From: Rosenbergiella metrosideri | Lineage (GTDB): Bacteria; Pseudomonadota; Gammaproteobacteria; Enterobacterales; Enterobacteriaceae | NCBI RefSeq assembly: GCF_022602565.1 | Contig: NZ_JALBCV010000005.1 | Location: 62,001 to 126,000, forward strand | DNA length: 64,000 nucleotides | Direction: 5' to 3' | Shown: one piece after another, positions 33,257-52,764 of the stretch | How positions within the stretch are numbered: position 1 is the first letter of the stretch | How the letters are laid out: each line of letters opens with the position of its first letter | Position numbers and translations under genes: made by a program | The notes under the pieces: model-generated | What the model was told of the DNA's origin: nothing | The model's input: the letters and a program-made list of their open reading frames with translations, nothing else | Database searches by the model: none

Positions 33257-34444
<1,188 letters not shown>

Positions 34445-34899: not shown

Positions 34900-34902
34900 T
34901 TG

Positions 34903-35649
34903 CTATGCGCCTAAGGTTGCACCACCATCAATAACAATATCCTGTAATACGATATGGCTCGCAAGATCCGATGCTAGAAACAGGATCGTGTTAGTGATCT
35001 CGCGGGGTTTAGCGATCTTTTTCAAAGGAATACCGAGTTTAAACTGATCAGGAAAACCATTAATCATCTGCTGCTCAGCTTCAGGGGTATGCCATAAGCT
35101 ACGTTGCATTGCGGTATCTGTTGAGCCCGGCGAAACGATATTGCAGCGCACCCCATAGGGGGCCATTTCTAAACCTACCGTCTGGCAAAGGCTGCGTAAC
35201 GCCGCTTTGGATGCACCATATGCCGACATGCCAAGACGTGGGGCATGAGCGGAATTAGAGGCAACGCTGACAATAGCGCCAAACCCTTGCTGACGAAATA
35301 GCGGAAGCGTTTGTGAAAAGAGGTTAAACGCTCCACCGGCATTAACATTAAAGCAGGCTTGCCAATCTTCGAAACTCAAGACGTCGGTCGCACCAATACG
35401 TAGAATACCTGCAGCATTGACTAAGACATCAAGACGAGGTTGCTGGGCTAATTGCGCTTGGCAGACGTCAGCGACCTGTTGAGGATCGGCAACGTCCATG
35501 ACTGTGCAGTGGAAAGGATAGTGCTCGCCGGAAAACTGTTTATCGAAGCCAATAACGATGGCGCCAGCTTGATGAAACGCACAGGCTGCGTCGTAACCAA
35601 TCCCTTGGCCAGCACCGGTCACCCAGACATATTTGTCGCGAAAATCCAT
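34903..35649 (-). CDS. entA: EntA, 2,3-dihydro-2,3-dihydroxybenzoate dehydrogenase
   Basis: Short-chain dehydrogenase oxidising 2,3-dihydro-DHB to 2,3-dihydroxybenzoate with NAD+. Rossmann motif TGAGQGIG (about 10-17), catalytic Ser and YGASK motif (Tyr/Lys). From the start MDFRDKYVW it is exactly 248 residues as in E. coli; two adjacent Met codons just upstream are also possible. 12 bases after entB. Confidence 0.97.
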   Translation of the reverse strand: MDFRDKYVWVTGAGQGIGYDAACAFHQAGAIVIGFDKQFSGEHYPFHCTVMDVADPQQVADVCQAQLAQQPRLDVLVNAAGILRIGATDVLSFEDWQACFNVNAGGAFNLFSQTLPLFRQQGFGAIVSVASNSAHAPRLGMSAYGASKAALRSLCQTVGLEMAPYGVRCNIVSPGSTDTAMQRSLWHTPEAEQQMINGFPDQFKLGIPLKKIAKPREITNTILFLASDLASHIVLQDIVIDGGATLGA

Positions 35650-35661
35650 ACTCATCATCCG

Positions 35662-36510
35662 TTATTTATTCCCAGAAAGTAGTACCCACCAAGCATCGAA
35701 AGTAGGCGTTTTCGCTAGCGTTACGAAGTCCATACTCGGAATCGCCTGACGCCAGCGTGAAGCCAATGCCATCATTCGTACTGAGTCTAGGCCATAATCA
35801 ATCAGATTTTCGTCATCTTCTGGAATATCATCATCTTCGAGCAAGGGTAAAATGGCATCGCGTAACGCTTGCTTTGAGGCAGGCAGTAATAGCAGGTCAT
35901 CGGTCATCACCACTTTTCCACTGCGACCAGCGGTGTAGGTTAGCGCCATAAGATGCTCTTCTCGACTGAAGTCGGCCAAAGCATCGGCAACCATAAAGGG
36001 TTTGATATCCCGCATAAATGCATCTGTCGCGGTAGTCAGGCAACCAATATGGGCATAGACACCGGTGATAATCAATTGGTCGCGACCCATCGCTTTCAGC
36101 TGCTGTTCAAGATCAGAGCGCTGAAAAGCACTGTAACGCCACTTGGTCAGGACGATATCTTGTTCATCTGGGGCCAAGGCGGCGGTTACTTTTTGTTGCT
36201 CAGGATGACGATTTAAGCCAGGCCCCCACATATCGTTCAGTAGAGCGCGGTCCTCATCACTTTGCTCATTGGGTTGTGCAGTGTAGAACACTGGGATACC
36301 CAACGCTTTACATTGTTGGCGTAAGGCCGCGATATGGCCTACTACGGTATCGACAAATTCACTATTTTCTCCCCAGAAATTAAGGAAGTAGTTTTGCATA
36401 TCGTGAATTAATAATGCAGCGCGTTGTGGTTCGAAGGTCCAGTTCACTTTATTCTTCGGTAACTCATCGGCGGTCGGCAGGGCATAGGCCGTTAGTTTAG
36501 GGATACTCAT
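35662..36510 (-). CDS. entB: EntB, isochorismatase / aryl carrier protein
   Basis: Bifunctional. The N-terminal isochorismatase (about 1-205) makes 2,3-dihydro-DHB, with catalytic Asp37 (LIHDMQNYF) and Lys123. The C-terminal aryl carrier domain (about 215-282) has Ser243 (YGLDSVRMM), the phosphopantetheine attachment site, and presents DHB to EntF. 282 residues (285 in E. coli). It needs a phosphopantetheinyl transferase, and no entD is in this window. Confidence 0.97.
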   Translation of the reverse strand: MSIPKLTAYALPTADELPKNKVNWTFEPQRAALLIHDMQNYFLNFWGENSEFVDTVVGHIAALRQQCKALGIPVFYTAQPNEQSDEDRALLNDMWGPGLNRHPEQQKVTAALAPDEQDIVLTKWRYSAFQRSDLEQQLKAMGRDQLIITGVYAHIGCLTTATDAFMRDIKPFMVADALADFSREEHLMALTYTAGRSGKVVMTDDLLLLPASKQALRDAILPLLEDDDIPEDDENLIDYGLDSVRMMALASRWRQAIPSMDFVTLAKTPTFDAWWVLLSGNK

Positions 36511-36546
36511 GACAACTCCAAAATCGATACACTATAAATAGGGGCA

Positions 36547-38166
36547 TTAAGCATTGTTCTTACTTTCTTCAAGTAGTTGCTGACGGAGCAACTTTTTATC
36601 CACTTTTCCGACTGGGGTTAGCGGTATGGCGTCGCTAAAGACGAATCGATCGGGTAATTTAAATTCGGCTATCCCTTGGTCACGTAAATGGCGACGTAGC
36701 TGTACAGCTTTTACCGCTTGTTTGGTGACGATATAGGCGCAACTTTTTTCACCTAATAATTCATCACTCATCGAGACAAGAGCAGCGTGGATAATGTCTG
36801 GATGTCGTTGTAAAAGATTCTCGATCTCTTCAGCGGCAATCTTTTCCCCGCCACGATTGATTTGATCTTTTTCACGGCCCTGAACAGTAATATAGCCGCG
36901 TTCATCAATCGAAATGAGATCGCCTGAGCAATAAAAGCCCTGTTGATCGAAGCAAGCCGCATTATGTTCTGGGCTATTATAGTATCCACGGAAAGTATAT
37001 GGACCACGGGTCATTAAACGGCCGGTCGTATTAACCGGAAGCGGTTGGCCTGCTTCATCAGCCACCCAGACTTCATCATCGGGTGAAATAGGGCAGCCTT
37101 GCGTGGTAAGGATGGTCTGTTGATCGTCATCGAGACGCGTATAGTTCACCAAGCCCTCTGCCATACCAAATACTTGCTGTAACTGGCAGCCGATTTCTGC
37201 AGGAATTCGTGCGGCTAAACTTTCGCTCAGCTTGGCTCCGCCAACTTGCAGTAAACGCAGTGAAGCGAGCTGATGCGCGCAGTTCCACTCTTGTATCGAC
37301 TGCAACCAGAGACTCACCGCAGGCGGTACTAAGGCCGTGACATTAATAAGGTGTTCGGCGATTAAGCTAAAGCAGGTAGTTGGGCTTGGATCGGGTGCCA
37401 AAACGCTAAGTCCACCACTGTATAGTACGCCAAGAATACCCGGTGAGCTCATGGGGTAGTTATGGGCGATAGGCAGTGCGCATAAATAACGCGTCTGCTC
37501 TGTAAATTGGCAAATATCGACACTACCAGTAATGCTGTAATAATAGTCGTTGTGGGTACGAGGAATCAGTTTAGGGGTTCCAGTACTGCCTCCCGACAAT
37601 TGGAAAAAGGCTACGTTATCTGCGGCACTTGGTGTTGGGGTGAACGAGTCGGCGGCTTGAGTATACAGCGACAATAAACTCGGTTCTTCGTCAACAGCGT
37701 TGTGCCAAACTTGATGTTGGAGCTCCGGACACTGCGCGCGGAGTTCATCGATAAAACGATTATCGCTAAAGACCGAATGTTGTCGGTCGGCGATTAGTAA
37801 CCGAGGTTTAATTTGAGCGGCATAGGCACTCAATTCGCTGCGCTGGTGGCTGAAAAGTGCATTAACCGGGGCTACGCCTAATTTTAATAGGGCAAAAAAG
37901 ACAATATAAAATTCGCAGTGATTCCCCAGCTGAACTAATGCCGTATCCCCCGATCGCATCCCACGACTTTGTAACTGTGCAGCCAATTGGTCGCTGTATT
38001 GTGCAAGCTGGCGGTAGCTGAGCGTTTGTATCGCATCGATAATCGCTTGGCGATCGCTATCATGATGCCGATCGAGAATATCTGTTAGAGGAAGGTCTAA
38101 CCAATAGCCTTTTTCACGATAACGTGCCGCCAGCTCTGCAGGCCAAGGCGTAAAAGAAATGCTCAT
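36547..38166 (-). CDS. entE: EntE, 2,3-dihydroxybenzoate-AMP ligase
   Basis: Adenylates 2,3-dihydroxybenzoate and loads it on EntB. AMP-binding motif [15 protein letters not shown], then the YCSGDL and [14 protein letters not shown] core motifs and the C-terminal catalytic Lys (PVGKVDKK). 539 residues (536 in E. coli). Sixteen bases after entC and 36 before entB. Confidence 0.97.
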
Positions 38167-38182
38167 GAATACGTACCTAAAA

Positions 38183-39373
38183 TTAATGTAAACCGAAGGC
38201 TTTTAGCATAGTACTGAGTTTGGTACCGGTCTCTTGCCACTCCGAAAGCGGATCGGAAGCAGGAACGATACCTGCGCCGGCAAAGAGGGTAACCTGTTGT
38301 GGGGTTAATTGTGCACAACGAATCGTCACGACCCATTCGCCATTACCTTCATCATCGCACCAACCCACCATGCCACCAAAGAGTTCTCTAGGGAAAGGCT
38401 CTAACTGTTGAATTAGACGGCAAGCTAACTGATGAGGGTAGCCGCTCAATGCAGGGGTAGGGTGAAGTAATCCTGCTAGCGCTAGCGCATTTTCTTCAGC
38501 GTGATGGGTAATCCCTTGTACGGTGGTCGCAAGGTGCCACAGTTGTGAGGTGGTGACCAATTCTGGAACTTGCGGCACTTGTAACTGCTCAGCGACCGGG
38601 GCTAATACTTTTGCCATCGCGTCTATAACTAGCTGATGCTCATGGCGGTCTTTGGTCGATGCAAGCAGCGTCTGGCCTACACGATAATCGTCCTCTTGGT
38701 CTAGCTGACGCTTTGCTGAACCGGCTAAAGGGCGAGAGCTAAATTGATTTTTTTGCTTACGTAGCAGGAGTTCAGGGCTTGCACCCAGTAATACTTCGTT
38801 ATTTGTAAGCGGGACATGGAAATGATAGTTATCCGGGTTCTGCGCCATAATGCGGCCCATCAACGCAGTGCTATCAATAGGGTCCTCTGTCGTCAATTTT
38901 AGCAGCCTAGAAAGAACGACTTTATCTAGCTCACCTCGATTCATTGCTGCGACAGCATCGCTTACCATCTTCATAAAATGGGGTTGATCAGGGTAAGCTT
39001 GCTGACCGGTGATTGAGGCGATCGGTTGCTGTAGAGAAGAACGGAGCTCTGTGGCCAATTGGTCACGGTCGGTACGGGTAACTTGCTGGGGAATAAACAG
39101 CGCGGTCGGCTGATGGGAATCAAAGGGAATAGCTCCCACCACTAATGGGTCTCTAATCCCTGCGGCACGGGCAAGACGAAATTGTTCCCGCAGCATCTGT
39201 TGAAAAGCGTCTTGGCTTCCCTCGCCATCAAGCAAAGGCTGGGTAATACGTTTAAAGCAACCGTCAGTCAGCAGGCTGGTTTCTGGAGAGGTAAACAGAA
39301 AACGTTCGTTTAATGCGCCCTGTTGTTGAATTTTGCAGTGTGGAATATTTTCAACGGCAGTGATTTCGACCAT
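38183..39373 (-). CDS. entC: EntC, isochorismate synthase
   Basis: Chorismate-to-isochorismate isomerase, the first dedicated step of enterobactin synthesis. The chorismate-binding domain is complete: [10 protein letters not shown] near the centre, [15 protein letters not shown] with the conserved His, and [15 protein letters not shown] near the C-terminus. 396 residues (391 in E. coli). First gene of entCEBAH, with a Fur-box-like site about 30 bp upstream. In E. coli this operon is repressed by Fur-Fe2+. Confidence 0.97.
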
Positions 39374-39400
39374 AATAGCACCATTAAATGATAAGATAAT

Positions 39401-39419
39401 TAATAATGATTATCATTTG
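39401..39419. promoter_or_regulatory. Fur box between entC and fepB
   Basis: The minus strand matches the 19-base Fur consensus at 16 positions (core ATGATAATCATTAT). It lies 28 bp from entC and 120 bp from fepB in the 165-bp divergent spacer, so it could control both operons, as the entC-fepB site does in E. coli. Confidence 0.85.
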
Positions 39420-39538
39420 AATTTTGGCGGTAAGCTACGCTTAACTCCCTTACCTGTCAACTGATGAGGCCCACTTAAGGTTAACTTCTCATTAAGACCT
39501 TAGGATTACGCACTAGATGCTCATATAGGAAAGCCATT

Positions 39539-40498
39539 ATGATCCGACGCTCAAGACTGCTAAATATTCTCTTAGTCAGTGTGTTGTTACCTTTAGCAGG
39601 GCTGAGTCAAGCAGCCGATTGGCCAAGGCAAGTCGTGACGGATAATGGGACGGTGACAATAAAGAGTGCACCGAAAAGAATCGTCTCGACCAGTGTTACC
39701 CTGACGGGATCGTTACTCGCCATCGATGCCCCTGTGATAGCCAGCGGTGCAGGTGTGCCGAATAGCCGCTTTACCGATAACCAAGGCTTTTTTAGCCAAT
39801 GGGGTGCTGTGGCGAAGCAAAAGCACGTACAGCGCTTATATATTGGTGAGGCGAATGCCGAGATGGTGGCTGCGCAGGCCCCGGACTTAATCGTCGTCAG
39901 CGCCACGGGGCACGACAGCGCGCTGCGGTTAGTGAATCAACTTTCAAGCATTGCACCAGCGATTGTCGTCAATTATGACAATAAAAGCTGGCAGCAGATC
40001 GTTACGCTGCTAGGTCAAGCTACCGGTCATGAAGATCAAGCGAATACCTTAGTTCATCAGTTTGACCAGCGCGTTGCCGCATTAAAACCCAAATTAAAAC
40101 TCCCTCCTCAGCCTGTCTCCGCTTTTGTTTGGAATGGAGGTGGGAAAGAGGTGAATCTCTGGACCGCAGACTCTGCTCAAGGGAAACTGTTACAACAGTT
40201 AGGGTTCACCCTAGCGCCAACGCCGACCGGGCTGGCAACTAGCCACAGTATGGGACAGCGTAAAGATATTATTCAGCTTTCCGGTGAAAAAATGAGTGAA
40301 GGGCTGAGTGGTAAAAGCTGGTTAATGTTCGTCGCGGACGATAATACGGTCAAACAAGTGAATGATGATCGTTTTCTACAGCAAGCATCTGCTGTGAAGC
40401 AAGAGCATGTCTACCCGCTGGGTAACGATAATTTCCGTTTAGATTACTACAGCGCGACAGATACTTTAGCGATGCTAGAAAAACTCTTTGTGCATTAA
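39539..40498 (+). CDS. fepB: FepB, periplasmic ferric-enterobactin binding protein
   Basis: Substrate-binding component (cluster A-II, helical backbone) delivering ferric enterobactin to FepDGC. Signal peptide about residues 1-25 (cleavage after SQA), no lipobox. The periplasmic-binding fold TroA-like motifs PKRIVSTS and ANAEMVAAQAPDLIVVS are present. 319 residues (318 in E. coli). Here fepB heads one operon with fepDGC; in E. coli it is separated from them by entS. Confidence 0.96.
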   Translation: MIRRSRLLNILLVSVLLPLAGLSQAADWPRQVVTDNGTVTIKSAPKRIVSTSVTLTGSLLAIDAPVIASGAGVPNSRFTDNQGFFSQWGAVAKQKHVQRLYIGEANAEMVAAQAPDLIVVSATGHDSALRLVNQLSSIAPAIVVNYDNKSWQQIVTLLGQATGHEDQANTLVHQFDQRVAALKPKLKLPPQPVSAFVWNGGGKEVNLWTADSAQGKLLQQLGFTLAPTPTGLATSHSMGQRKDIIQLSGEKMSEGLSGKSWLMFVADDNTVKQVNDDRFLQQASAVKQEHVYPLGNDNFRLDYYSATDTLAMLEKLFVH

Positions 40499-40499
40499 G

Positions 40500-41522
40500 G
40501 TGAAAAACACTCAATCCTCTTCGTGGTGTAAACCCTTAGGACTCTTTTCCGGGGCAATAATCGTCTTATTTGGCTTAATCATTGTGAGTTTGCTGACTGG
40601 AGCCAAGACGATTCCCTTATCAGAAAGCTGGTCAAGCCTGTCATTGTGGTATACCTGTCACAGTGAGAATTGCGACATTATCCGGTATTCACGGCTGCCG
40701 CGGACCTTGGCTGGCTTAGTCGCAGGCTGTGCGCTGGGGCTAGCCGGTGCATTGATGCAATCTCTGACGAGGAATCCGCTCGCTGATCCTGGTCTATTGG
40801 GCGTCAATTCAGGTGCCAGTTTTGTTACCGTCGTGGGATTAAGTTTCTGGGGAACACTCTCTTTCTGGCAGAGTTTTTCTTTAGCATTTTTAGGGGCTCT
40901 TTTGGCGGCCATTGTCGTGGCGATTACCGGTGCAGGACGCGGCGGCCGATTGAACCCGATTCGTCTGACGTTAGCAGGTGTTTCGTTAGCGGCTATTTTA
41001 GAAGGGCTGACGAGTGGTATCTCTCTGTTAAACCCCGATATTTACGATCATCTGCGCTTCTGGCAAACCGGGTCATTAGATGTACGGCAACTTACGATCT
41101 TTAGCTTACTCGGCCCGGTGGTAGCGATTGCTACCCTTTGCACGTTGATGCTGAGTCGTTCATTAAATGCGATCAGCATGGGCGAGGATCTCGCTCGCAC
41201 CTTAGGAACACGCGTCGGACTTGTGCAGCTGTGTGGGCTACTGCTTATCGCGTTATTATCTGCCTGTGCAACGGCTCTGACCGGCCCTATTGCTTTTATT
41301 GGACTGGTTGCGCCGCATCTTGCGCGTGGCATCTTAGGCAGCGACCATCGTTATTTTTTACCGGGTACGGTGCTAATCACCCCGGCTGTTTTACTGCTTG
41401 CTGATATTATTGGTCGTAGTATTGCCCCTAGTGAAATTCGTGTATCGATTATCACTGCTCTTATCGGTGCCCCCGTCTTAATTATTCTCGTTCGTCATCG
41501 GATAGGGCGTGGCATGTCATGA
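40500..41522 (+). CDS. fepD: FepD, ferric-enterobactin permease subunit
   Basis: FecCD-family inner-membrane permease forming a heterodimer with FepG. About nine to ten membrane segments; the family segment SLTRNPLADPGLLGVNSGAS and the coupling-loop region GPIAFIGLVAPHLAR are present. The GTG at 40500, one base after the fepB stop, is chosen (340 residues); a TTG at 40488 overlapping fepB is an alternative. Neither has a strong ribosome site, so translational coupling to fepB is likely. E. coli length 334. Confidence 0.95.
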   Translation: MKNTQSSSWCKPLGLFSGAIIVLFGLIIVSLLTGAKTIPLSESWSSLSLWYTCHSENCDIIRYSRLPRTLAGLVAGCALGLAGALMQSLTRNPLADPGLLGVNSGASFVTVVGLSFWGTLSFWQSFSLAFLGALLAAIVVAITGAGRGGRLNPIRLTLAGVSLAAILEGLTSGISLLNPDIYDHLRFWQTGSLDVRQLTIFSLLGPVVAIATLCTLMLSRSLNAISMGEDLARTLGTRVGLVQLCGLLLIALLSACATALTGPIAFIGLVAPHLARGILGSDHRYFLPGTVLITPAVLLLADIIGRSIAPSEIRVSIITALIGAPVLIILVRHRIGRGMS

Positions 41523-42502
41523 AGAAACGTCCACTGATTATTTTCTGTTTCTTATTGTTTGCGGTCGGGTCGGTGATGTTCAGCGCACTATGTCGTGGCG
41601 CTATCCCGTTATCGCTACACGACCTATGGCTGCTCCTCACGGGAAACGGACCTGCAGGTTTGCGATTAGTTGTCGTCGAGTGGCGGCTACCCCGAGTGCT
41701 TATTGCAGTATTCTGTGGCGCGGCGCTAGGGATCAGCGGCGCGATTTTCCAATCCATTTTACGTAACCCACTGGGTAGTCCGGATGTATTAGGTCTTAAC
41801 GCGGGTGCTTTCTCTGGCGTTCTCGCCGTTATGCTACTGTGGCCCAGTAACCTGTTCGCTATGACGTTAGCCTCGTTGGTGAGCGCCGCGTTAACCGGCA
41901 CCATCATCTATCTATTGGCTTGGCGTCAAGGTATCACCCCTTATCGATTAATTTTGATAGGAATAGGTATTCGAGCTCTGCTTATGTCGTTTAATGGCTG
42001 GGTGATAACCTCAACTTCGTTAAGTACTGCGATGAGCGCAGGCTTATGGAGTGCTGGGTCATTGAACGGCGTAAATTGGCAGAGCGTTACCCTGGTTTTT
42101 CCTGCGGTAATTATCGCACTACTCGGGGTCGCGATGTTAGCGAAACGGATGCGGCTCATGGAGATGGGGGACGACTTAGCCTGCGCGCTGGGCATCCGCA
42201 CGGAGCGAACGCGGTTAGGATTGCTGTTACTCGCCACTTTACTGACCGCGGTACCCACCGCGGTGATTGGACCTGTCTCTTTCGTTGCGCTGGTGGCACC
42301 ACAGATTGCACGGCGTCTGGCTAACAGCCCGTCTGGTGTATTATGGAATACAGCATTATGTGGCAGTCTATTACTACTGGCCGCGGATTATCTGGCGCAA
42401 CATGCTTTCCTGCCTTATCAACTTCCCGTCGGGGTAATTACCGTCAGTGTAGGCGGCATCTATCTATTGTCACTTTTGGTTAGAGAGGCCAGACGTTCAT
42501 GA
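41519..42502 (+). CDS. fepG: FepG, ferric-enterobactin permease subunit
   Basis: Second FecCD-type permease subunit. Family segments QSILRNPLGSPDVLGLNAGA and the late GPVSFVALVAPQIARRL are visible among about nine membrane helices. 327 residues (330 in E. coli). Its ATG overlaps the fepD stop (ATGA), and its own end overlaps fepC in the same way. Confidence 0.96.
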   Translation: MKKRPLIIFCFLLFAVGSVMFSALCRGAIPLSLHDLWLLLTGNGPAGLRLVVVEWRLPRVLIAVFCGAALGISGAIFQSILRNPLGSPDVLGLNAGAFSGVLAVMLLWPSNLFAMTLASLVSAALTGTIIYLLAWRQGITPYRLILIGIGIRALLMSFNGWVITSTSLSTAMSAGLWSAGSLNGVNWQSVTLVFPAVIIALLGVAMLAKRMRLMEMGDDLACALGIRTERTRLGLLLLATLLTAVPTAVIGPVSFVALVAPQIARRLANSPSGVLWNTALCGSLLLLAADYLAQHAFLPYQLPVGVITVSVGGIYLLSLLVREARRS

Positions 42503-43290
42503 GTTTATCTTCTTCCCGTCTTGCTGCGAGAGACCTCACATTGGCTTACGACAATAAAACGGTCGCAGAGCAGCTATCGGTAACGATTCCCGATGGCGAA
42601 TTTACGGTGATTATTGGTCCAAACGCCTGTGGGAAATCGACGCTATTAAAAGCGCTAAGTCGAGTGATAAAACCGGTCGCCGGCCAAGTTATTCTTGATG
42701 GGCAGGCTATCCATCAGTTACCGGCGAAAGAGGTAGCCCGACAACTCGGTTTGCTTCCTCAAAATAGCCATACGCCTGCAGGGATCACCGTCGCAGATTT
42801 AGTTGGCCGCGGACGTTATCCACATCAGTCACTGTTTGGTGGATGGCGTCTTGAGGATAGCCAAGCCGTGGCTGAAGCGATGGCAGCGACTCATATCGAC
42901 CATTTGGCGGATCGTCCCGTTGAGCAGCTTTCCGGAGGGCAGCGGCAACGTGTCTGGATTGCCATGGTGTTGGCACAGCAAACCCCGCTATTGCTCCTCG
43001 ACGAGCCGACGACATGGTTGGATATCACTCATCAAATCGAGCTGATGGAACTGTTACGTGAGCTAAACCAACGCCATGGCCGTACATTAGTCGTGGTACT
43101 GCATGAATTAAACCAAGCGTGTCGCTACGCCAGCCATCTTATTGCGATGCGTGAAGGGGCAATTATTGCCGAAGGTAAACCCAGTGAGATTATCACCGCG
43201 GAGTTAATTGAGCAGGTCTACGGATTGAAAGCGGTCATTATCGCTGATCCCATTGCAGGGACACCGATGATCGTCCCCGTCGGGAAATGA
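42499..43290 (+). CDS. fepC: FepC, ferric-enterobactin ABC ATPase
   Basis: ATPase energising FepDG. Walker A GPNACGKST (about 36-44), Q-loop LPQNSH, signature LSGGQRQRVWIAMVLAQ and Walker B LLLLDEPTTWLD. 263 residues (271 in E. coli). Last gene of fepB-fepDGC, convergent with entF. Confidence 0.97.
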   Translation: MSLSSSRLAARDLTLAYDNKTVAEQLSVTIPDGEFTVIIGPNACGKSTLLKALSRVIKPVAGQVILDGQAIHQLPAKEVARQLGLLPQNSHTPAGITVADLVGRGRYPHQSLFGGWRLEDSQAVAEAMAATHIDHLADRPVEQLSGGQRQRVWIAMVLAQQTPLLLLDEPTTWLDITHQIELMELLRELNQRHGRTLVVVLHELNQACRYASHLIAMREGAIIAEGKPSEIITAELIEQVYGLKAVIIADPIAGTPMIVPVGK

Positions 43291-43308
43291 GGGGGCAACT
43301 GCCCCCTC
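43289..43308. terminator. Hairpin between convergent fepC and entF
   Basis: Perfect stem GAGGGGGC/GCCCCCTC with an AACT loop, overlapping the fepC stop and 5 bp from the entF stop. No U-tract follows on either strand, so it is a strong hairpin but not a classical terminator. Confidence 0.6.
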
Positions 43309-43313
43309 TAGCA

Positions 43314-46300
43314 TCAGGAGAGTAAATGCCTTAAGCGGCGGTTGATCTCTGGGCCGATGGTTTCAAACATCGCCGGTGAAATGATCTCTACATGGGCACA
43401 GTCGATGGGCACAATATCTAACTGCTGAATAAAAGGTGCCCAAGCTTGTTGCGCACTTAACCCAGGTTGCTGCGTTTTTAAGGCGGAGAATAGTGTCGCT
43501 TTTCCTTGTGTCTTACGACTGCGGGCGGTCGTTAATAGGCGCACGGAGTGGGCGTAATTAGCTTCAACCTGATCAAAAAGATGAGAAAGCTCCTCACCTG
43601 CTTGTTGCCGCTGACTTTGAACAAACTGCTCACGTTCACGGTTGACTTCTTCAATGACTTGCTCATCCAAGACATTTTTCCCCTGCTTCTCATCCCAATT
43701 CTGCGTTTCAGGTGGCCACGTATCAAGCAGGCCTAAAAACGCAACCTCTTCTCCTCGTGCTTCCAGCCGTGACGCAATACCTTGGGCTAAGGTCCCACCG
43801 AGGGAGTAGCCGATAAAATAATAAGGCCCCGTGGGTTGGTCGGCCAGAAGCGTCTCAAGATGCCGGTCACAGACATCATCAATATGCTGCGCATCCCCTA
43901 AAGCGCCTTGTTCATCCGGCGATTGGATACCAATAATGGACCATGTCGGGTCTAGATACCGTTGTAATACGCTAAATTGCCACGCGAACCCGGATGCGGG
44001 GTGGAAACAGTAGAGACGAGGTCCCTGTGTTTGGCGTAGAGGTAACAAGGTGTGTAATCCACTGTCCGCGTATTCAGGACTTTGTTGAATGATCTGTGCA
44101 AGTTTTTCCACGGTTGCGTTCACCATCACGTGGCCAACGGTAAGCGGATAATCCATCTGCTTACGAATTTGCGCGGCTAAACGCATTGCTAAGAGCGAGT
44201 GCCCCCCCAATGCAAAGAAGTCCTGATTGGCTGCGACCTGTGGCCGCTGCAGGAGTTCGGCAAACATTGCGGCTAATTGAACCTCTACTGCGCCTTGAGG
44301 TTCACGCAGCGAGTGGTGATCGTCAAGTTTCGGAACGGGCAGGGCTTTACGATCTAACTTACCATTACTGCTAAGAGGGAATGCCTCAACGGGAATAATG
44401 ATCACCGGCACCATATGCGCTGGTAGCCGTTCGGCCAGTTGCTGACGAAGATGATCTGTCTGTTGTGGCGTGTCAGCAATAATATAGCTGACCAATTGTC
44501 GGTCATCGGCTAGACCGGATAATTGTTGATTTAAGCTTACGGCAACGGATGCCGCTTGCTTAATCCCTGGCAATGAGAGGAGAACGGCATCAATCTCTGA
44601 GAGTTCTATCCGCTGACCGCGGATTTTGAGTTGGTCATCGTTACGTCCCAAATATTCAATTTCACCGTTGGTAAGACGACGGGCTACATCGCCGCTACGG
44701 TACAAGCGTTGAGTTGCATCCCAAGGTGCGGCAATAAACCGCTCGGCAGTGAGCTCGGGTCGACCTAAATAGCCCTCTGCCAGCTGCACTCCGCCTAGCC
44801 ATAGTTCACCAGCAATACCATAGGGAACGGGTTTAAGCTGACTATCGAGAATATGAAGCTGAGTGTTCCAAACCGGCCAGCCAATCGGCACGCTGTGACC
44901 TTCCACCGCGGCAAGTTCTGGGCCAAATGCTGGGAACCAACTCACGTCTACAGCAGCTTCGGTGGGGCCATATAAATTATGGCACGGGATCGCTACACTT
45001 TGTTCCCATTGACGAGCCAGCGCGGTAGGCAGGGCTTCGCCACTACAAAAGACGAGACGTAGATGCTGTCGTAACGCCGTGGCAGTGGCTTCAGTGAGGC
45101 TTTCTAAAAACGCGGCTAACATTGACGGCACAAAGTGGGTCACGCTGACATGTTGTTCAACCATGACTTGTTGTAACCACTCAGGATCGCGATGGCACTC
45201 GGGAGGAGCCATAAAGAGCTTCGCCCCAGTCATTAATGGCCAGAAGAACTCCCACACCGACACATCAAAACTACTTGGCGTTTTCTGGATAACGACATCT
45301 TGAGCATCAAGTGGGTAGTGGTTTTGCATCCATTTTAAGCGATTCACGATCGCGTGATGGCTGACTAACACGCCTTTAGGTCTACCTGTCGAACCTGAGG
45401 TATAAATTAAGTATGCCCCTTGTGTCGAGACGGGAACAGCGGCTGATAATAACGGCACATCGGTAAATAGCGATTGATAATAATAATGTGGCGTGTCGTT
45501 AATGTGTGTAAACCGACTACTCAGTGCCTGTTCGGTGATTACCAAGCGCGGAGTTGAATCCTCCAGCATAATGGCTAAGCGGTCATCAGGATAGCCGGTA
45601 TCAAGCGGCAGCCAAATTGCGCCGAGCCGCACGATCGCCTGCAGGGATAATGAGAGATAGATGGAGCGCGGAAGCGCCACGGCGACGATATCGCCAGCTT
45701 GCACACCCTGTTGCTGAAGTGCGGCAGCCAAGGCAATGACCTGCTGTTCCATCTGTGCGTAAGATAGCGCAACGTGCGAATCAGCCAGCGCAATATTATC
45801 CGGAGTACGTTGACATTGTGTGGCGATCATCGACCATAGGGTATCGTCTTGCAGCACAATGTCGGTAGCATTAACGTTGACCAATTGAAGCTGCTCTTGC
45901 TCGCTTAGAAGACTGAGTTCAGAGAGCGTTAGCGTTGGCTGGGCGGTTAACTGTTCGATAATCAGTGGCAAACGTTGAATATGCGTCAACAGTGCGTGTT
46001 CGTCGTAACGATTGCTATTGGCTAAGAACTCTAAGGTTAAGGCACCTTGATTATCGAGGATTAACGCAATTTCAATATCGCGCACCGGCCCTGAGGCTAA
46101 GTGGGTGGTATGAACGTTCTGGCCTTCAAACGCTAAGTGATAATCGAAGAGTTTGACGTTTAAGACAGGGCCGAACAGCGGGGCACTATCTCCGGTTAAG
46201 CCTAAGTCGCGGCTAATTTGTTCTGCATCATAGCGTTGATGACGTCGATTTTTCTTAATCTCTTTATTGAGAAGACCTGCAAATTCGGTAAAAGTATAAC

Positions 46301-47282
46301 TAGGTTGATACCCAACACTCATAGGTAAGACATTAATCACCGGCCCGACTGCGCTAAGGGCTGCCGATCCCATTCTGCGCATAAAAATAAAGCCCGCGCT
46401 AAAGGGTTGCTGGCCCGTCAGATGGGCCAGCCAGGTATTGACGAGCGTAACTGCCGCATCGACAGGCGTGAGGCCTGATTCGGCGAGGTGTTGGTGTAAC
46501 GGAGCAAGCTGCTGAGCGGAAAACTGTATCGTGTGACGTATTACCTGCGGGCTAGCCACTTCACCATTCAGCGGCGCTTGTGCAAGGCTTAGCGGATCGG
46601 GCAGCTGCGGGACTTTCTCCAGCCAATAGCGCTTATCTTTTTGATACGTTGTGCTGTGTTGGTAATTTTGGTACTCCTCAACAACCTCATCGAATGCGGT
46701 AAAGGGTGAGGCGGCTAGCGGTTGCTGGTGGCGTAAATGGGCATAAATTTCACTAATCCGTTTGGTGAGGGCAATAAAGCTGAAGCCATCGACCATCAGG
46801 TGGTGATAACGCTGATACCATATCCATTGTTCAGGGGTGATACGTATCAGCACCTGCCTAACCTTGGGACCTTTATCAGTAATACGTAAAGGACTTTGTA
46901 GATCGGCTTCCATTAAGGCATGTGCCGCTGCCAACGCCTGAGGATCGTCACGGAGATCAATAGATTCTACCGTAAAGCCTAGGTTGGGGCTAAAACATTG
47001 GAAGGCTTCTCCTTCGTGCTCATCAAACCGAAAATTAACAGTGTCTGCTTCGGCCAACCCTTGTTGAATAGCCTGTTGCATCAAATCAAGATTGAGCGTT
47101 CCCGGTAGCGTGATAGCGTGTGCGACGGCAAAGGCGTTGCCGAAAGGAGAAAGTTGGTCGGCAACCCAGATCCCGGGTTGTGCGGCAACCAGTGGTAACC
47201 GACGAGTCGTCACTGACGATGAGGCTGTGTTGTACTCATCAGGGGAACGTTGTTGTGCTATGCTGTCATCGATAATCATCAT
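43314..47282 (-). CDS. entF: EntF, enterobactin synthase NRPS (C-A-T-TE)
   Basis: Activates serine, condenses it with DHB from EntB and cyclises three units into enterobactin. Domains: condensation (about 30-440, HHLMVDG at 160-166), adenylation (about 470-990, YTSGSTGRPKG at 627-637), carrier (LGGHSL, Ser1028) and thioesterase (GYSLGG, Ser1159). 1322 residues against 1293 in E. coli; an extra N-terminal segment of about 28 polar residues precedes the usual LPLVAAQPGIW start. The ATG lies 1 bp after the fes stop with an AGGA ribosome site, so no ybdZ gene lies between. Needs 4'-phosphopantetheine from a transferase not in this window. Confidence 0.96.
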   Translation of the reverse strand: MMIIDDSIAQQRSPDEYNTASSSVTTRRLPLVAAQPGIWVADQLSPFGNAFAVAHAITLPGTLNLDLMQQAIQQGLAEADTVNFRFDEHEGEAFQCFSPNLGFTVESIDLRDDPQALAAAHALMEADLQSPLRITDKGPKVRQVLIRITPEQWIWYQRYHHLMVDGFSFIALTKRISEIYAHLRHQQPLAASPFTAFDEVVEEYQNYQHSTTYQKDKRYWLEKVPQLPDPLSLAQAPLNGEVASPQVIRHTIQFSAQQLAPLHQHLAESGLTPVDAAVTLVNTWLAHLTGQQPFSAGFIFMRRMGSAALSAVGPVINVLPMSVGYQPSYTFTEFAGLLNKEIKKNRRHQRYDAEQISRDLGLTGDSAPLFGPVLNVKLFDYHLAFEGQNVHTTHLASGPVRDIEIALILDNQGALTLEFLANSNRYDEHALLTHIQRLPLIIEQLTAQPTLTLSELSLLSEQEQLQLVNVNATDIVLQDDTLWSMIATQCQRTPDNIALADSHVALSYAQMEQQVIALAAALQQQGVQAGDIVAVALPRSIYLSLSLQAIVRLGAIWLPLDTGYPDDRLAIMLEDSTPRLVITEQALSSRFTHINDTPHYYYQSLFTDVPLLSAAVPVSTQGAYLIYTSGSTGRPKGVLVSHHAIVNRLKWMQNHYPLDAQDVVIQKTPSSFDVSVWEFFWPLMTGAKLFMAPPECHRDPEWLQQVMVEQHVSVTHFVPSMLAAFLESLTEATATALRQHLRLVFCSGEALPTALARQWEQSVAIPCHNLYGPTEAAVDVSWFPAFGPELAAVEGHSVPIGWPVWNTQLHILDSQLKPVPYGIAGELWLGGVQLAEGYLGRPELTAERFIAAPWDATQRLYRSGDVARRLTNGEIEYLGRNDDQLKIRGQRIELSEIDAVLLSLPGIKQAASVAVSLNQQLSGLADDRQLVSYIIADTPQQTDHLRQQLAERLPAHMVPVIIIPVEAFPLSSNGKLDRKALPVPKLDDHHSLREPQGAVEVQLAAMFAELLQRPQVAANQDFFALGGHSLLAMRLAAQIRKQMDYPLTVGHVMVNATVEKLAQIIQQSPEYADSGLHTLLPLRQTQGPRLYCFHPASGFAWQFSVLQRYLDPTWSIIGIQSPDEQGALGDAQHIDDVCDRHLETLLADQPTGPYYFIGYSLGGTLAQGIASRLEARGEEVAFLGLLDTWPPETQNWDEKQGKNVLDEQVIEEVNREREQFVQSQRQQAGEELSHLFDQVEANYAHSVRLLTTARSRKTQGKATLFSALKTQQPGLSAQQAWAPFIQQLDIVPIDCAHVEIISPAMFETIGPEINRRLRHLLS

Positions 47283-47283
47283 C

Positions 47284-48504
47284 TTATTCGTCCTGCCATA
47301 ACGCTTGTAATCCATCTAATAAACTTCCCCGCCACCAGAGTGCATCGTGTCCACCTTCGACATAGCGTAAACGATGTGGGATGTGGTAGTGGCTTAACCA
47401 CTTATCCATTTCGCGGTTGGCTTCGCAAATTAATGTTTCGCGGCAACCTGCCTCCAAGAGTATTTCTCGTGGAGCGATAACGGGGGCTTTCTGCTGTAAC
47501 TGTTGAAGCAGGTAACCTGCCGCATGCCCGCGGTTCGGCCACCAAAAGGATCCGGAAAGGCTGAGGGCTTTACCGTAAAATTGTGGCCAGTTAAGGCACG
47601 CATAGACTGAGGCCAGCCCACCAAAACTTTGCCCTGTGACCAGGGTTCGTGCGGGGTCTTGTCGCCAATCGAATGTTTGTTTGATTAGCGGGAGTAATTC
47701 TTCGTTAATAGCCAGCCAAAAATCGGCATTACAGGGATATTCTCGGCCACGATGCTCGCGATCGATGATTTCAGGCATGATGTAGAGTGCCGCAGGAAGT
47801 TTTCCCCTATCCGTCAATTGCTGCAGAGGACTGGCGATAGGGAGAGTGTTGGCCCAGAACTGTCCATCAAGTATTAAGGCTAAATGCTGATAGGTCGCAG
47901 TGTCCTCTTTCGCCGAACCGTAGCACCACACGTGTCGTTCATTACCTAACCGAGCACTCTTCCAGAGAATGACCTTCAGGGGGAGCGGCGACTGCTCTCC
48001 TCGATCCCATGCTTGCCATTCAGGCTGCGCAGGCGCATCAGGGAGATGAAGGGGGGAGACAGACATCCCTCGACCTGCAGACCAAGAACGTAACGCGTTG
48101 AGGCTATCGTGTTGGGCATGTGTAAACTGTTCGCGCCACCATTCCCGACGCTGGAAAATATCTTGCTTCAACAACCCTACCTCGTTCTTTGAGTCCGGGA
48201 TCAAGCAATAACTTCCTCGCCACTCAGCGGGAAGCGTGAGGCTAAGATACCAGACATCGCTAGCGGGATAATGGACTAGGGATATTGGAGGCTTGGGCTG
48301 GTGATGATCAGTGATCCCCGTAATGTTGAGCCATACCGCTTTTATGGGTGGGGCCTCAGCGGGGCGAGCAGGCTGACGCCAGAGGAAGGTCACGCGGCAT
48401 TGTTGCGCATCAATTCGCTCGATACGCGGCACACCCTGCAATTGTTGTGCTTGCCACCACAGATCGGAACCGGTATCAGAGGTAAACCATTCAGGAATAA
48501 GCAT
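47284..48504 (-). CDS. fes: Fes, ferric enterobactin esterase
   Basis: Cytoplasmic serine hydrolase cleaving ferric enterobactin to release iron. N-terminal Fes domain (about 1-150) and esterase-D-like hydrolase with the nucleophile in GQSFGG and the late GGHDALWWRG with the catalytic His. ATG start chosen (406 residues; 400 in E. coli), a TTG two codons upstream being possible. Immediately precedes entF and is divergent from fepA. Confidence 0.95.
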   Translation of the reverse strand: MLIPEWFTSDTGSDLWWQAQQLQGVPRIERIDAQQCRVTFLWRQPARPAEAPPIKAVWLNITGITDHHQPKPPISLVHYPASDVWYLSLTLPAEWRGSYCLIPDSKNEVGLLKQDIFQRREWWREQFTHAQHDSLNALRSWSAGRGMSVSPLHLPDAPAQPEWQAWDRGEQSPLPLKVILWKSARLGNERHVWCYGSAKEDTATYQHLALILDGQFWANTLPIASPLQQLTDRGKLPAALYIMPEIIDREHRGREYPCNADFWLAINEELLPLIKQTFDWRQDPARTLVTGQSFGGLASVYACLNWPQFYGKALSLSGSFWWPNRGHAAGYLLQQLQQKAPVIAPREILLEAGCRETLICEANREMDKWLSHYHIPHRLRYVEGGHDALWWRGSLLDGLQALWQDE

Positions 48505-48563
48505 TTGCAAAATTATCTTTTATAGCAGCTATCTGCGAATAGCGTTCAGAAGCGAGATTTGTT

Positions 48564-48588
48564 GATAATAGTATTGATAATTATTTTC
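48564..48588. promoter_or_regulatory. Fur-box-like site between fes and fepA
   Basis: Repeated hexamers GATAAT-AGTATT-GATAAT followed by TATTTTC; the best 19-base frame (48570-48588) matches the Fur consensus at 14 positions. It lies 60 bp from fes and 137 bp from fepA in the divergent spacer, as in the E. coli fes-fepA promoter region. Confidence 0.7.
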
Positions 48589-48724
48589 ATCTGCAATAGA
48601 TTGCAATCTCTCTTTACGTAGTTTGTCGTTTATTGCGCATTTGTTTGCATAATGGTAGCGATCTCGTAAAGACTCCTTACTAAACACACACACAGCATTG
48701 ACCTAGGGAACTGGGATTATAAAA

Positions 48725-51058
48725 ATGAAAAAATTATCATTTCTTTCTGCTGCAATTTGTCTTGAGCTAGGTAGCTCATTTTTTATTTATTGCGCGCCGG
48801 CTTCAGCGGCTTCATCGGATGTCACCGTCAACTCTCCTGCGTCAGATGAAACCGCAGCCAAAACTTCTAGTGATAAGCCATTATCTACCGAAGAGAATTC
48901 ACATAACTCCATCGTCGTCACGGCTCGCCAGCAAACCCTCCAAGCACCAGGTGTCTCGACGATCTCCTCTGAAGCGATTCGTAAACACCCTCCGGCGCGT
49001 GATGTATCAGAAATCATTCGTACCATGCCTGGGGTGAATTTAACCGGCAACTCGACCAGTGGGCAGCGGGGAAATAACCGTCAGATCGATATTCGGGGTA
49101 TGGGGCCAGAAAATACCTTAATTTTGATCGATGGCCGTCCGGTCAGTAGTAAAAACTCGGTACGCTATGGATGGCGGGGTGAACGAGATTCTCGTGGTGA
49201 TACCAACTGGGTGCCACCGGAAATGATTGACCACATTGATGTTATCCGCGGACCGGCTGCGGCACGCTACGGTAGCGGCGCGATGGGCGGAGTGGTTAAT
49301 ATCATCACTAAGCAAGCGAATAAAGAGTGGCATGGTTCATGGAACGCCTATTACAACGTTCCACAACATAAATCTGAAGGTTCAACCAAACGAACGAATT
49401 TCAGCTTAATGGGGCCTGCAACCGATAGCTTAACATTAAGTATTTGGGGAAATATCGATAAGACCCAAGCGGATGCTTACGACATTAACCAAAATCATTC
49501 AGCATCGCGTACCGGTACCTATGCCGGGAGCTATCCTGCTGGCCGTGAGGGAGTGAGAGATAAAGATCTCCACGGCAAACTGAATTGGGAATTTGCCCGC
49601 AATCAGCATCTCGAGTTCGAAGCCGGGACCAGTCGCCAAGGGAATATTTATGCTGGCGATACGCAGAATACTAACACCTCAGATTATGTGAAAAGCAAAT
49701 ATGGCGACGAAACGAACCGTATTTACCGCCAAGATTATGCCTTAACTTGGACAGGGGTCTGGGATAACGGAGTCAGTACTAATACCTATGCGCAATATGA
49801 GAGAACCCGTAATTCTAGGATTACCGAAGGATTAGCCGGCGGAACCGAGGGGATCTTTAATAATAACGCCGGGTTCTCCGATATCGATCTGAGCGATGTG
49901 CTGCTGCACAGTGAAGTCAGTATTCCCTTTACGGCTTGGGTAGACCAGAACCTCACCTTGGGAACTGAGTGGAACCAGCAAAAGATGAAAGACGGCACCT
50001 CAACCAGCCAAGCGCTCACTGGGACGAATACTGGCGGCGCAATCAGTGGGGTCGGAACGGGTACGCGTTCACCGTATTCTCAAGCGCAGATTTTCTCTAT
50101 GTTTGCTGAAGACAATATGGATATCACGGATTCCACGGTATTAACACCGGCCATCCGTTTTGACCATCACTCCATTGTCGGCACTAACTGGAGCCCATCA
50201 CTTAATTTAACTCAACAGCTCACTAACGAGTGGACGTTGAAGATGGGGATTGCTCGAGCCTATAAAGCGCCTAATCTGTACCAAACTAACCCGAACTATA
50301 TTCTCTATAGTAAAGGTCAAGGGTGCTACGGCAGTTCGAGTTCGGGTTGTTACTTACAAGGTAATAGCGACCTTAAAGCAGAAACCAGCGTCAATAAAGA
50401 GATTGGACTCGAGTACAAAGATCTTGCTGGACTGCAGGCAGGGCTGACTTATTTCCGTAATGACTACCATAATAAAATTGAGTCGGGTAACAATGTTACT
50501 TACACCAATAGTAGTGGTACTCGCGTTTTCCAATGGGAAAATGTGCCGCGTGCGGTAGTTGAAGGCCTTGAGGGAACCTTTAATGTCCCAGTCACCGATA
50601 CGGTTACTTGGAATAATAATATGACGTGGATGCTGCAAAGTAAGGATAAGACGAATCATGATCGTCTTTCCGTTATCCCGCAGTTTACCCTGAACTCCAA
50701 TGTCGAGTGGCAGATTCGTCAGGACCTGTCGGTACAAGCAACATGGACTTGGTACGGTAAACAGAAACCGAAGAGTCGTAACTACCAAGGGAATAAAGTC
50801 AGTTACCCTGATACCCGTGAAGTCAGTCCATACAGCATCTTTGGGGCCAGCGCGACATGGGACGCTACCAAGAATGTCAGTATTACCGCTGGGATAGATA
50901 ACCTCTTTGATAAACGTCACTTCCGCGAAGGGAATGCACAAACTACTGGAACGCTTAATTCGAAGACAGGTGTCACAAGTTACCTATACGGTGCAGGTGC
51001 TAACACTTACAACGAGTCAGGCCGAACCTTCTATATGAGTCTTAACACTCACTTCTAA
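48725..51058 (+). CDS. fepA: FepA, TonB-dependent ferric-enterobactin receptor
   Basis: 22-stranded outer-membrane barrel with N-terminal plug. Signal peptide about residues 1-29, then a Ser/Asp/Glu-rich stretch longer than in E. coli, the TonB box SIVVTA (about 63-68), plug domain with DIRGMGPENTLILIDGRPV, and barrel strands ending in MSLNTHF with the C-terminal aromatic residue for BAM insertion. A Cys pair (GQGCYGSSSSGCYL) matches the disulfide loop of E. coli FepA. 777 residues (746 in E. coli). Confidence 0.97.
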   Translation: MKKLSFLSAAICLELGSSFFIYCAPASAASSDVTVNSPASDETAAKTSSDKPLSTEENSHNSIVVTARQQTLQAPGVSTISSEAIRKHPPARDVSEIIRTMPGVNLTGNSTSGQRGNNRQIDIRGMGPENTLILIDGRPVSSKNSVRYGWRGERDSRGDTNWVPPEMIDHIDVIRGPAAARYGSGAMGGVVNIITKQANKEWHGSWNAYYNVPQHKSEGSTKRTNFSLMGPATDSLTLSIWGNIDKTQADAYDINQNHSASRTGTYAGSYPAGREGVRDKDLHGKLNWEFARNQHLEFEAGTSRQGNIYAGDTQNTNTSDYVKSKYGDETNRIYRQDYALTWTGVWDNGVSTNTYAQYERTRNSRITEGLAGGTEGIFNNNAGFSDIDLSDVLLHSEVSIPFTAWVDQNLTLGTEWNQQKMKDGTSTSQALTGTNTGGAISGVGTGTRSPYSQAQIFSMFAEDNMDITDSTVLTPAIRFDHHSIVGTNWSPSLNLTQQLTNEWTLKMGIARAYKAPNLYQTNPNYILYSKGQGCYGSSSSGCYLQGNSDLKAETSVNKEIGLEYKDLAGLQAGLTYFRNDYHNKIESGNNVTYTNSSGTRVFQWENVPRAVVEGLEGTFNVPVTDTVTWNNNMTWMLQSKDKTNHDRLSVIPQFTLNSNVEWQIRQDLSVQATWTWYGKQKPKSRNYQGNKVSYPDTREVSPYSIFGASATWDATKNVSITAGIDNLFDKRHFREGNAQTTGTLNSKTGVTSYLYGAGANTYNESGRTFYMSLNTHF

Positions 51059-51087
51059 TAAAAAAACCCGCTTACGCGGGTTTTTTT
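51058..51087. terminator. Bidirectional terminator between fepA and dacB
   Basis: A-run, stem AACCCGC/GCGGGTT with a TTAC loop, then seven T. It suits both convergent genes and marks the right edge of the enterobactin cluster. Confidence 0.93.
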
Positions 51088-51091
51088 ATAG

Positions 51092-52525
51092 CTAATAATT
51101 TCGATACAAATCGCTGTAGAGTCGACTTTCAAATCGGACAAGGGGGACGCGTCGCGTTCGTTGATCTTCTGGAGGGACCGCATACCCAGAGAGGTATTGT
51201 ACGAAGGCGATGCGCGTTCCGCGTGACGTCGTTAAGAAGCCTGCTAAGTTATACACGCCCTGTAACGAACCGGTTTTCGCAGAGAGCTTTCCATCGACAC
51301 CTGCTTCGTGTAATCCGCCACGATACTGTAAGGTGCCATCGTAACCAGCTAAAGGAAGCATACTAATAAAATCGAGGCTGCTGTCATTCTTAGCAATAAA
51401 CTGCAGTGCTTGCATCATAGTGTCCGGTGCAACCAAATCGTGCCGTGATAATCCGGAACCATCGACTTGGATGGTATTGCCCATGTCGACGCCCGCTTTC
51501 TCACGAAGGATACGGCGTACCGCATCCGACCCTGCCCGAAACGTTCCTGGTACGTTGAAATAGTGATGACCGATTGTTCGGAAAACCGTATCGGCAATCA
51601 TGTTATCTGACTTCTTCAACATAGTATGTAATAGGCTATGGAGCGGGGCGGATTGTTCGATTGCCAGAACGGTACCAGGTTCGGTGGGTTGCGTTTGACG
51701 GAGCAAGTGGCCACGATAGTCGATATCGGCTTTACGTAGCTCATCCCGCAAAATTTCCCCAGCCCAAGCCGCGCCATCTTGCACAGCGAAGGCAAGAGGA
51801 AGCGGGTCATTACGCTGGCGCAGACACCCGGTCAGGGTATAGCGGTTTAATTCCCCGGGATTTACGTCAAGCTCGCAATATTGCGCCTCACCTGAGTTAG
51901 GACCTAAGGTTTTCACCTCACTATACATGTGCGCAGGATAGTAAGACGCAATACGGATAAAGGCGTTTTCGCCCGGCGTTTTGGCGCTATAGAGCGAGAT
52001 AGAAAAACAGTTTTTATCGACAATAGCGGCTGCAGGAGGCGCGCTAAAGCATTGCGTTAAATCATTCCATGGCCAGCCGGGAGCCATATCGTGGCTCGCG
52101 AAAACTGAAGTATCGATGACCAAGTTACCTTGAATATGCGTAACACCCTTCTGTTTCAGCTGCGCGACCATATTACGTAAGTCTTGCCGCGTAAACGTCG
52201 GGTCGCCACCAAAGCGAGCAACCAGATCACCCTGTAAGGTATCACCGACTATTTTTTGGTGACTTTCAAAGGTGGTCTGGAAACGAAAATCTTTGCCAAG
52301 TTCTATTAGTGCGGCCAGTGCAGTGAACACTTTCATCGTACTGGCAGGCAGCGCCATTTGTTTTCCGTGATAATCGACAATCGGTGTTGTATCGCCTACC
52401 CTTTGCGCCATGAACGCGAGATTGGTACCATCAGGAAGGTATTGGGTATAATCCTCGACAGGCGTTGCGGTGGCTTGAAGCGTTACCGCAAGGGTAAGAG
52501 CTGTAATGAGTCTTGAAAGTCGCAT
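51092..52525 (-). CDS. dacB: DacB (PBP4), D-Ala-D-Ala carboxypeptidase/endopeptidase
   Basis: Periplasmic class C penicillin-binding protein trimming and cleaving peptidoglycan cross-links. Signal peptide about 1-20; active-site Ser62-x-x-Lys65 (ASTMK), SDN motif (KKSDNM) and KTG motif (SAKTGSL) all present, with the large inserted domain between. From MRLSRLITAL it is 477 residues, exactly as in E. coli; the 38-residue upstream extension is not signal-like. Divergent from greA. Confidence 0.97.
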   Translation of the reverse strand: MRLSRLITALTLAVTLQATATPVEDYTQYLPDGTNLAFMAQRVGDTTPIVDYHGKQMALPASTMKVFTALAALIELGKDFRFQTTFESHQKIVGDTLQGDLVARFGGDPTFTRQDLRNMVAQLKQKGVTHIQGNLVIDTSVFASHDMAPGWPWNDLTQCFSAPPAAAIVDKNCFSISLYSAKTPGENAFIRIASYYPAHMYSEVKTLGPNSGEAQYCELDVNPGELNRYTLTGCLRQRNDPLPLAFAVQDGAAWAGEILRDELRKADIDYRGHLLRQTQPTEPGTVLAIEQSAPLHSLLHTMLKKSDNMIADTVFRTIGHHYFNVPGTFRAGSDAVRRILREKAGVDMGNTIQVDGSGLSRHDLVAPDTMMQALQFIAKNDSSLDFISMLPLAGYDGTLQYRGGLHEAGVDGKLSAKTGSLQGVYNLAGFLTTSRGTRIAFVQYLSGYAVPPEDQRTRRVPLVRFESRLYSDLYRNY

Positions 52526-52764
52526 AATCTCGGCGTCGTTAACAGTGGAACCCGCAATACTACGTCCCCTTGAGGGGCAAAGTAAACGATGATCCGGGAG
52601 GAACTCTCGGGTAAAATATGTATCAAACTGAAAATTCACTCGTCTTGGGTAGCAAACTATCTGAGGCGGGGTTGTTTTGTTTCAAATTTAGGTGCAGCTT
52701 ATTCGGTTAAGCTTGTATCGAATCAGGATGATTGACTGAATAACAGAGTAATGAGGAGTATAAG

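Follow-up and report, generated by a model that had tools for sequence, protein, structure and literature searches.

Adenylation domains that depend on an MbtH-like protein (MLP) and adenylation domains that work without one are both known, and the reason why some need an MLP and others do not is, to our knowledge, an open question. Here, a stretch of 64,000 nucleotides from Rosenbergiella metrosideri (contig NZ_JALBCV010000005.1; hereafter the window) was analyzed, in which entF, a nonribosomal peptide synthetase (NRPS) gene of the enterobactin locus, follows fes without the MLP gene ybdZ between them. The closest described system is EntF–YbdZ of E. coli (5JA1, 5JA2 and 5T3D, the best PDB match; residues 27-1317 aligned, 1481 bits), which is alike in architecture, pathway context and the docking motif PXXTA....A. 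The adenylation domain found here has the PXXTA pocket, the Ala or Pro of the tryptophan pocket and the salt-bridge Arg of an MLP-dependent pair; unlike in E. coli, the fes/entF junction beside entF holds no MLP gene, and none could be recognised in the rest of the genome.

According to earlier work, two MLP tryptophans surround an Ala (or Pro) of the adenylation domain and a third packs on the PXXTA pocket (PMC7539972), while an acidic residue close to the MLP N-terminus forms a salt bridge with an Arg of the adenylation domain (PMC7539972, PMC6668435, PMC7593251). The reported pairs are TxtH D6-R395/R422 (modelled), TioT D7-R395, SlgN1 E6-R446 and ObiF1 D1324-R853 (PMC7593251). PA1221, whose adenylation domain is MLP-independent, has Glu at the docking Ala and no PXXTA (PMC7539972). 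Rosenbergiella EntF would share its MLP-free working, but it keeps PXXTA and the Ala (Pro in 2/5 species), and thus shows neither the large polar residue nor the missing pocket of the PA1221 type. ObiF1, in which Arg853 and Ala841 correspond to Arg862 and Ala851 of EntF, differs in carrying its MLP in cis; without the MLP, its product counts were ∼50-fold lower, not zero (PMC6668435), which by analogy is a precedent for residual MLP-free activity. Searches of the openly licensed literature, which covered mostly titles and abstracts, returned no published description of MLP-less EntF lineages.

Absence of ybdZ beside an intact EntF

On the minus strand, fes (enterochelin esterase, 48510..47284; NCBIfam NF007758, 454 bits versus a cut-off of 222) was read to its stop codon at 47286-47284, and entF (enterobactin synthetase F, 1322 aa, 43314..47282, assigned by Pfam domains and the PDB match) to its ATG at 47282-47280. 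The sequence-only reading had placed the two codons 1 bp apart with no room for ybdZ, and this was confirmed: the single base 47283 separates them, where relatives hold ybdZ (∼70 codons). An alternative in-frame ATG at 47315, overlapping fes by 32 bases, was found in only 3/5 Rosenbergiella species, so the start is probably at 47282. Because the 1-bp spacing recurred in 5/5 Rosenbergiella genomes, the junction is not an assembly gap. Among the loci compared, fes and the conserved entF start were 228 bp or more apart where ybdZ was present, and 10-85 bp apart where it was missing.

No match to PF03621 (E ≤ 0.001) was obtained in the assembly that contains the window (3.34 Mb in 164 contigs, with a listed completeness of 100%) or in 4/4 other Rosenbergiella genomes, and the positive controls, E. 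coli and B. subtilis, were detected in the same search. Three named Rosenbergiella records also gave 0 MLP matches. An Enterobacterales MbtH profile, run with filters off against the six frames of the window, gave a best E of 11, which was not significant. The earlier statement that no MbtH-like sequence lay elsewhere in the window was thus borne out; the whole-genome profile check suggested at that time revealed no dedicated MLP gene, and the alternative then offered, that EntF uses an MLP encoded elsewhere, found no candidate in the five genomes.

The Pfam domains of EntF were Condensation (residues 28-467), AMP-binding (488-839), AMP-binding_C (896-975), PP-binding (1002-1064) and Thioesterase (1089-1310). 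No motif was disrupted in the condensation, adenylation, carrier or thioesterase domain. The protein was 98% identical to that of R. epipactidis, 88% to that of R. gaditana and 82% to that of R. collisarenosi, and only 51-59% identical to the 139 MLP-bearing EntF described below. The mean pairwise ratio of nonsynonymous to synonymous substitution rates (dN/dS) was 0.067 among the five Rosenbergiella sequences, 0.065 among 11 of the 18 MLP-less Pantoea and 0.134 among seven ybdZ-bearing Pantoea, with corresponding values of 0.025, 0.043 and 0.063 for residues 800-880; these ratios are rough, because synonymous sites were near saturation. EntF was filed as an orthologue on the basis of synteny and tree, not of the family model NF007605: its condensation, adenylation, thiolation and thioesterase module with intact motifs adjoins fes, fep and ent genes, and it nests among other Enterobacterales EntF in two trees, with an MLP-bearing nearest clade in the 61-row tree. 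An enterobactin-like cluster was reported in all sequenced Rosenbergiella, in a paper whose main text, as far as accessible, never mentions MbtH (PMC10142583).

Since EntF is intact and constrained, MLP-free function is the most likely reading. This part of the sequence-only reading stands as the best inference from the intact motifs, the low dN/dS and the presence of most pathway genes. We assign a rough probability of 0.77 to the reading that Rosenbergiella lost ybdZ, has no other recognisable MLP, and has an EntF that functions alone. The Rosenbergiella ancestor would have had the fes-ybdZ-entF order still kept by the sister group; ybdZ would then have been deleted, with no other recognisable MLP left in the genomes, and EntF would have remained a working module.

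Recurrent ybdZ loss and the MLP-docking face

In a sample of 392 Enterobacteriaceae genomes, 173 had an MLP and 143 had EntF (E ≤ 1e-300). An MLP was present in 138/143 EntF-bearing genomes; the five exceptions were four Rosenbergiella and G196, a genome of a different genus. Four genomes of the latter genus were included, two with an MLP and two without (G196 and G451), and G451 was absent from the EntF-positive rows. The fes-ybdZ-entF junction of a related species was present over 80% or more of its length in 5362/5426 E. coli genomes. Four of the seven named Pantoea loci whose EntF frame was intact lacked an adjacent ybdZ (SOD02, P. wallisii, P. dispersa and RIT-PI-b). In the genus of P. 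wallisii, 39 of 61 genomes had full-length EntF (>1590 bits); when the MLP position was sorted by coordinates, by hand, 22 of these adjoined an MLP and 17 had no adjacent ybdZ, of which 11 had an MLP only elsewhere and 6 had none. The MLP of those 11 genomes belongs to an adjacent two-module NRPS of ∼2,800 aa, which is perhaps a second siderophore synthetase. This NRPS (e.g. in G148, G111 and G142) was 42-51% identical to EntF over the better-matching part.

An EntF tree of 61 rows, including 12 of the 18 MLP-less Pantoea, was built with an IQ-TREE quick search, with support from the Shimodaira–Hasegawa-like approximate likelihood ratio test (SH-aLRT) only. Rows without ybdZ fell into three groups, and branches with SH-aLRT ≥95 forced three losses. 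The loss was common to all five Rosenbergiella genomes examined, whose sister clade (L179, L180, L184 and L185; SH-aLRT 100) keeps ybdZ in 4/4 rows, and it recurred at least twice elsewhere: in one Pantoea clade with a ybdZ-retaining sister group, and in G196, which stood beside two ybdZ-retaining species. The Rosenbergiella stem was long (0.7), and composition was flagged by the program for 3/5 Rosenbergiella rows.

In several Pantoea loci, the entF leader is a remnant of ∼21 nt from the 3' end of ybdZ (19/21 identical, L151 versus L159), and in G196 the 3' end of fes is fused to the codons that terminate ybdZ in its sister species. The Rosenbergiella junction held no readable ybdZ scar; its entF ATG, 1 bp past the fes stop, sits at the position of the ybdZ ATG in 2/4 sister-clade loci (L179 and L180). 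The third MLP tryptophan was missing in 14/139 adjacent MLPs, including those of both G196 sister species and 2/4 of the Rosenbergiella sister clade. In the G196 sister species (L253 and L259), YbdZ also has Cys in place of the conserved Ser of SLWP, as if it were eroding. Erosion before gene loss was considered for the third tryptophan and set aside, because 10 other loci without it show no loss.

The docking counterparts in EntF are P842, T845, A846, A851 and R862. They lie in the adenylation domain (residues 478-985 by our own bounds, 44328..45851, minus strand), which retains the docking motif PELTAERFIA (residues 842-851, 44730..44759, with the PXXTA pocket and the tryptophan-pocket Ala851) and the Arg862 codon (44697..44699) in the A7 motif, here Y-R-S-G-D. 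EntF 808 aligned with chain position 818 of 6N8E and EntF 859 with 870; as this chain is 20 residues longer than the ObiF1 numbering in the paper, A851 equals ObiF1 841 and R862 equals ObiF1 853, the very numbers used in that paper. In solved complexes, the arginine aligned with Arg862 (position 839 of the 5JA1 chain) forms the salt bridge with the MLP. The AlphaFold model placed residues 842-848 in a helix and 855-869 in a strand, which fits the helix and strands described at the corresponding site of TioT. The partner Asp (PFD) was invariant in 139/139 adjacent MLPs and Ala851 in 139/139 EntF with an adjacent MLP; the PXXTA pocket was retained in all 24 rows without adjacent ybdZ.

The column set comprised 139 distinct EntF with an adjacent MLP, and the residue-level reading covers the fetched loci among the 143 EntF genomes. 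The column counts leave out 18 rows that duplicated a genome or a sequence, together with six EntF whose frames were broken or truncated (L026, L274-L278); G018 (L133), with a broken ybdZ, was shown apart, and P. dispersa (L009) was counted among the 18 MLP-less Pantoea from its locus alone. There were 328 invariant columns, 176 of them in the adenylation domain, Arg862 included. It was found that 18/18 Pantoea without adjacent ybdZ were changed at 862 (Leu in 17, Val in 1), which was the sole invariant column altered in all 18. G196 had His at 862 and was truly changed at no other invariant column, as the gap at its column 34 was a trimming artefact and the residue is present. As a gauge of chance, 18/9454 diverged MLP-bearing EntF pairs shared a change at an otherwise invariant column. 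On the 61-row tree, no 862 change occurred over a length of 10.2 with an MLP and three occurred over 1.95 without (P = 0.004); for the two Arg-losing changes alone, P was 0.026. In a survey of A7-pattern frames from all fetched loci, in which copies of the same genome were counted more than once, Leu, Val and His were confined to EntF without adjacent ybdZ, and the others had Arg or Lys. Because adenylation domains of other enzymes also hold Arg or Lys there, position 862 may serve a second role.

In Rosenbergiella, the changes near 862 were M860L and T863S, with G808Q further upstream. Rosenbergiella-specific changes affected 9/55 columns at residues 800-880 versus 25/448 elsewhere (95% conserved columns, P = 0.007), and 2/34 versus 9/294 at strict invariance (P = 0.32). 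An interpretation of this cluster as adaptation was dropped, because the MLP-bearing sister clade (8/60 versus 15/459, P = 0.002) and L130 (5/56 versus 8/449, P = 0.009) share the clustering.

Weighing of the alternatives

We read the replacement of Arg862 (to Leu/Val in Pantoea, to His in G196) as an adjustment of the bared MLP face. That it frees EntF from the MLP, having arisen twice independently while Rosenbergiella reached the same end through other changes, is a tentative proposal that we regard as rather unlikely. As Arg862 and most of the docking motif remain in Rosenbergiella, an adjustment there, if any, must lie elsewhere. The rival with the best standing, which we judge to have somewhat less than an even chance, concerns only this reading of Arg862 and not the loss of ybdZ itself: after loss of the partner, Arg862 and a few docking residues would have changed through relaxed constraint, without conferring MLP independence. 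The alignment of Arg862 with an MLP-contacting residue is consistent with it, as are the change of Ala851 to Pro in 2/5 Rosenbergiella and 1/18 MLP-less Pantoea and the Leu and His codons, each one base away from Arg CGC. Nevertheless, position 862 was not free after the loss. Leu was kept in 17/18 Pantoea (codons CTG 7, CTC 7 and CTT 3, beside GTG 1), and a hand count on the tree gave about three silent changes versus one amino-acid change (estimated P ∼0.15), an excess that leans weakly to constraint. The dN/dS of residues 800-880 also remained at 0.025-0.043, and the PXXTA pocket was intact in 24/24 rows. Sequence cannot separate compensation from relaxed constraint at Arg862.

Several points weigh against the preferred reading or its Arg862 component. 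Deletion of ybdZ in E. coli was reported to abolish enterobactin (PMC7593251, citing Schomer and Thomas), so activity of EntF without an MLP cannot be taken for granted; the growth effect of a ybdZ deletion was weaker in Salmonella Typhimurium than in Paratyphi A (PMC11176087). EntF scored 1700.9 bits against the strict equivalog NF007605, its best match (residues 26-1317), which has a cut-off of 2400. Position 862 was picked post hoc, and only two of the three losses fit the pattern, which is broken by the retention of Arg862 in 5/5 Rosenbergiella. Arg862 was also retained in G018, with its broken ybdZ and another MLP nearby, and the 800-880 cluster appeared in 2/10 MLP-bearing controls as well. 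In G018 (L273; contig 3528110-3534200), a TAA interrupts the entF-adjacent ybdZ (33 bits), while the opposite strand encodes, at a distance of ∼600 bp, a second MLP that is intact and of another type; a replacement of one MLP by another is possible.

That the MLP role in Rosenbergiella is filled by a protein or segment without homology to MLPs, or by one diverged beyond recognition, was judged improbable. Arg862 and the docking motif are kept as if something still bound them, and entF starts where ybdZ does in two sister-clade loci, with acidic residues in an N-terminal extension of 28 residues ahead of LPLVAAQ (47199..47282, minus strand). However, none of the five genomes had a PF03621 match (E ≤ 0.001), and comparably long extensions are present in some MLP-bearing EntF, such as that of Serratia. 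The extension is predicted to be disordered (AlphaFold confidence score, pLDDT, ∼30), and its conservation (head 70%, tail 47%) is below that of whole EntF (82-98% to the window). An AlphaFold model of the condensation-adenylation didomain (34 sequences, one chain; its output shows no contacts) gave no support to a remnant or mimic of the acidic MLP N-terminus, with residues 1-25 at pLDDT <50.

Decay of the Rosenbergiella enterobactin pathway with an inactive EntF was considered quite improbable. A gene reported as required in E. coli is gone, the region of fepB and the first permease gene (39374-41522) showed no entS exporter frame between the two, and a desferrioxamine cluster was also reported in the genus (PMC10142583). 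These points are opposed by a dN/dS of 0.067 over five species, by intact frames and motifs with receptor, esterase, uptake and dihydroxybenzoate genes present, and by a second ACPS-type frame of 261-279 aa (EntD-sized) in 5/5 Rosenbergiella. Supply in trans by the MLP of another NRPS cluster is highly improbable: 11/17 Pantoea without adjacent ybdZ have such an MLP and cross-talk between MLPs is documented (PMC7593251), but none is available in the five Rosenbergiella, G196 and 6 other Pantoea genomes, and Pantoea EntF has Leu862 (Val in one) regardless of a second MLP.

Locus context and implications

Apart from fes and entF, the locus comprises, on the plus strand, a FepA-type siderophore receptor gene (48725..51058; NF010048, 1212.6 bits versus a cut-off of 493), fepB (39539-40498; NF008200), two permease genes (40488-41522 and 41519-42502; Pfam FecCD) and an ABC ATPase gene (42499-43290; Pfam ABC_tran), and on the minus strand entC, entE, entB, entA and entH (39373-34480; NCBIfam). 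The products of entA and entE exceeded the NCBIfam cut-offs, the EntC and EntH models scored best but below cut-off, and entB was assigned by position and a weak hydrolase-type match only. The genes fepB and the first permease gene share a strand and overlap at 40488-40498; in E. coli the order differs. By Pfam, the genes that flank the ent/fep/fes cluster (34480-52639) are of obgE type (33269-34444) and dacB type (52639-51092). The cluster looks inserted between them, as obgE and dacB are adjacent in E. coli. Among the other loci, entF was split into two or three frames despite an intact ybdZ in L275, L276 and L278 of the Pantoea set. The fes-ybdZ-entF loci L017 and L025, from records named Pseudomonas, branched beside Serratia-type EntF in the trees, which looks like horizontal transfer.

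The three natural losses beside ybdZ-keeping relatives provide matched pairs in the well-studied EntF, and two of the three single out the same MLP-contacting position. If true, an MLP-free EntF would help the expression of NRPS modules without a helper protein.

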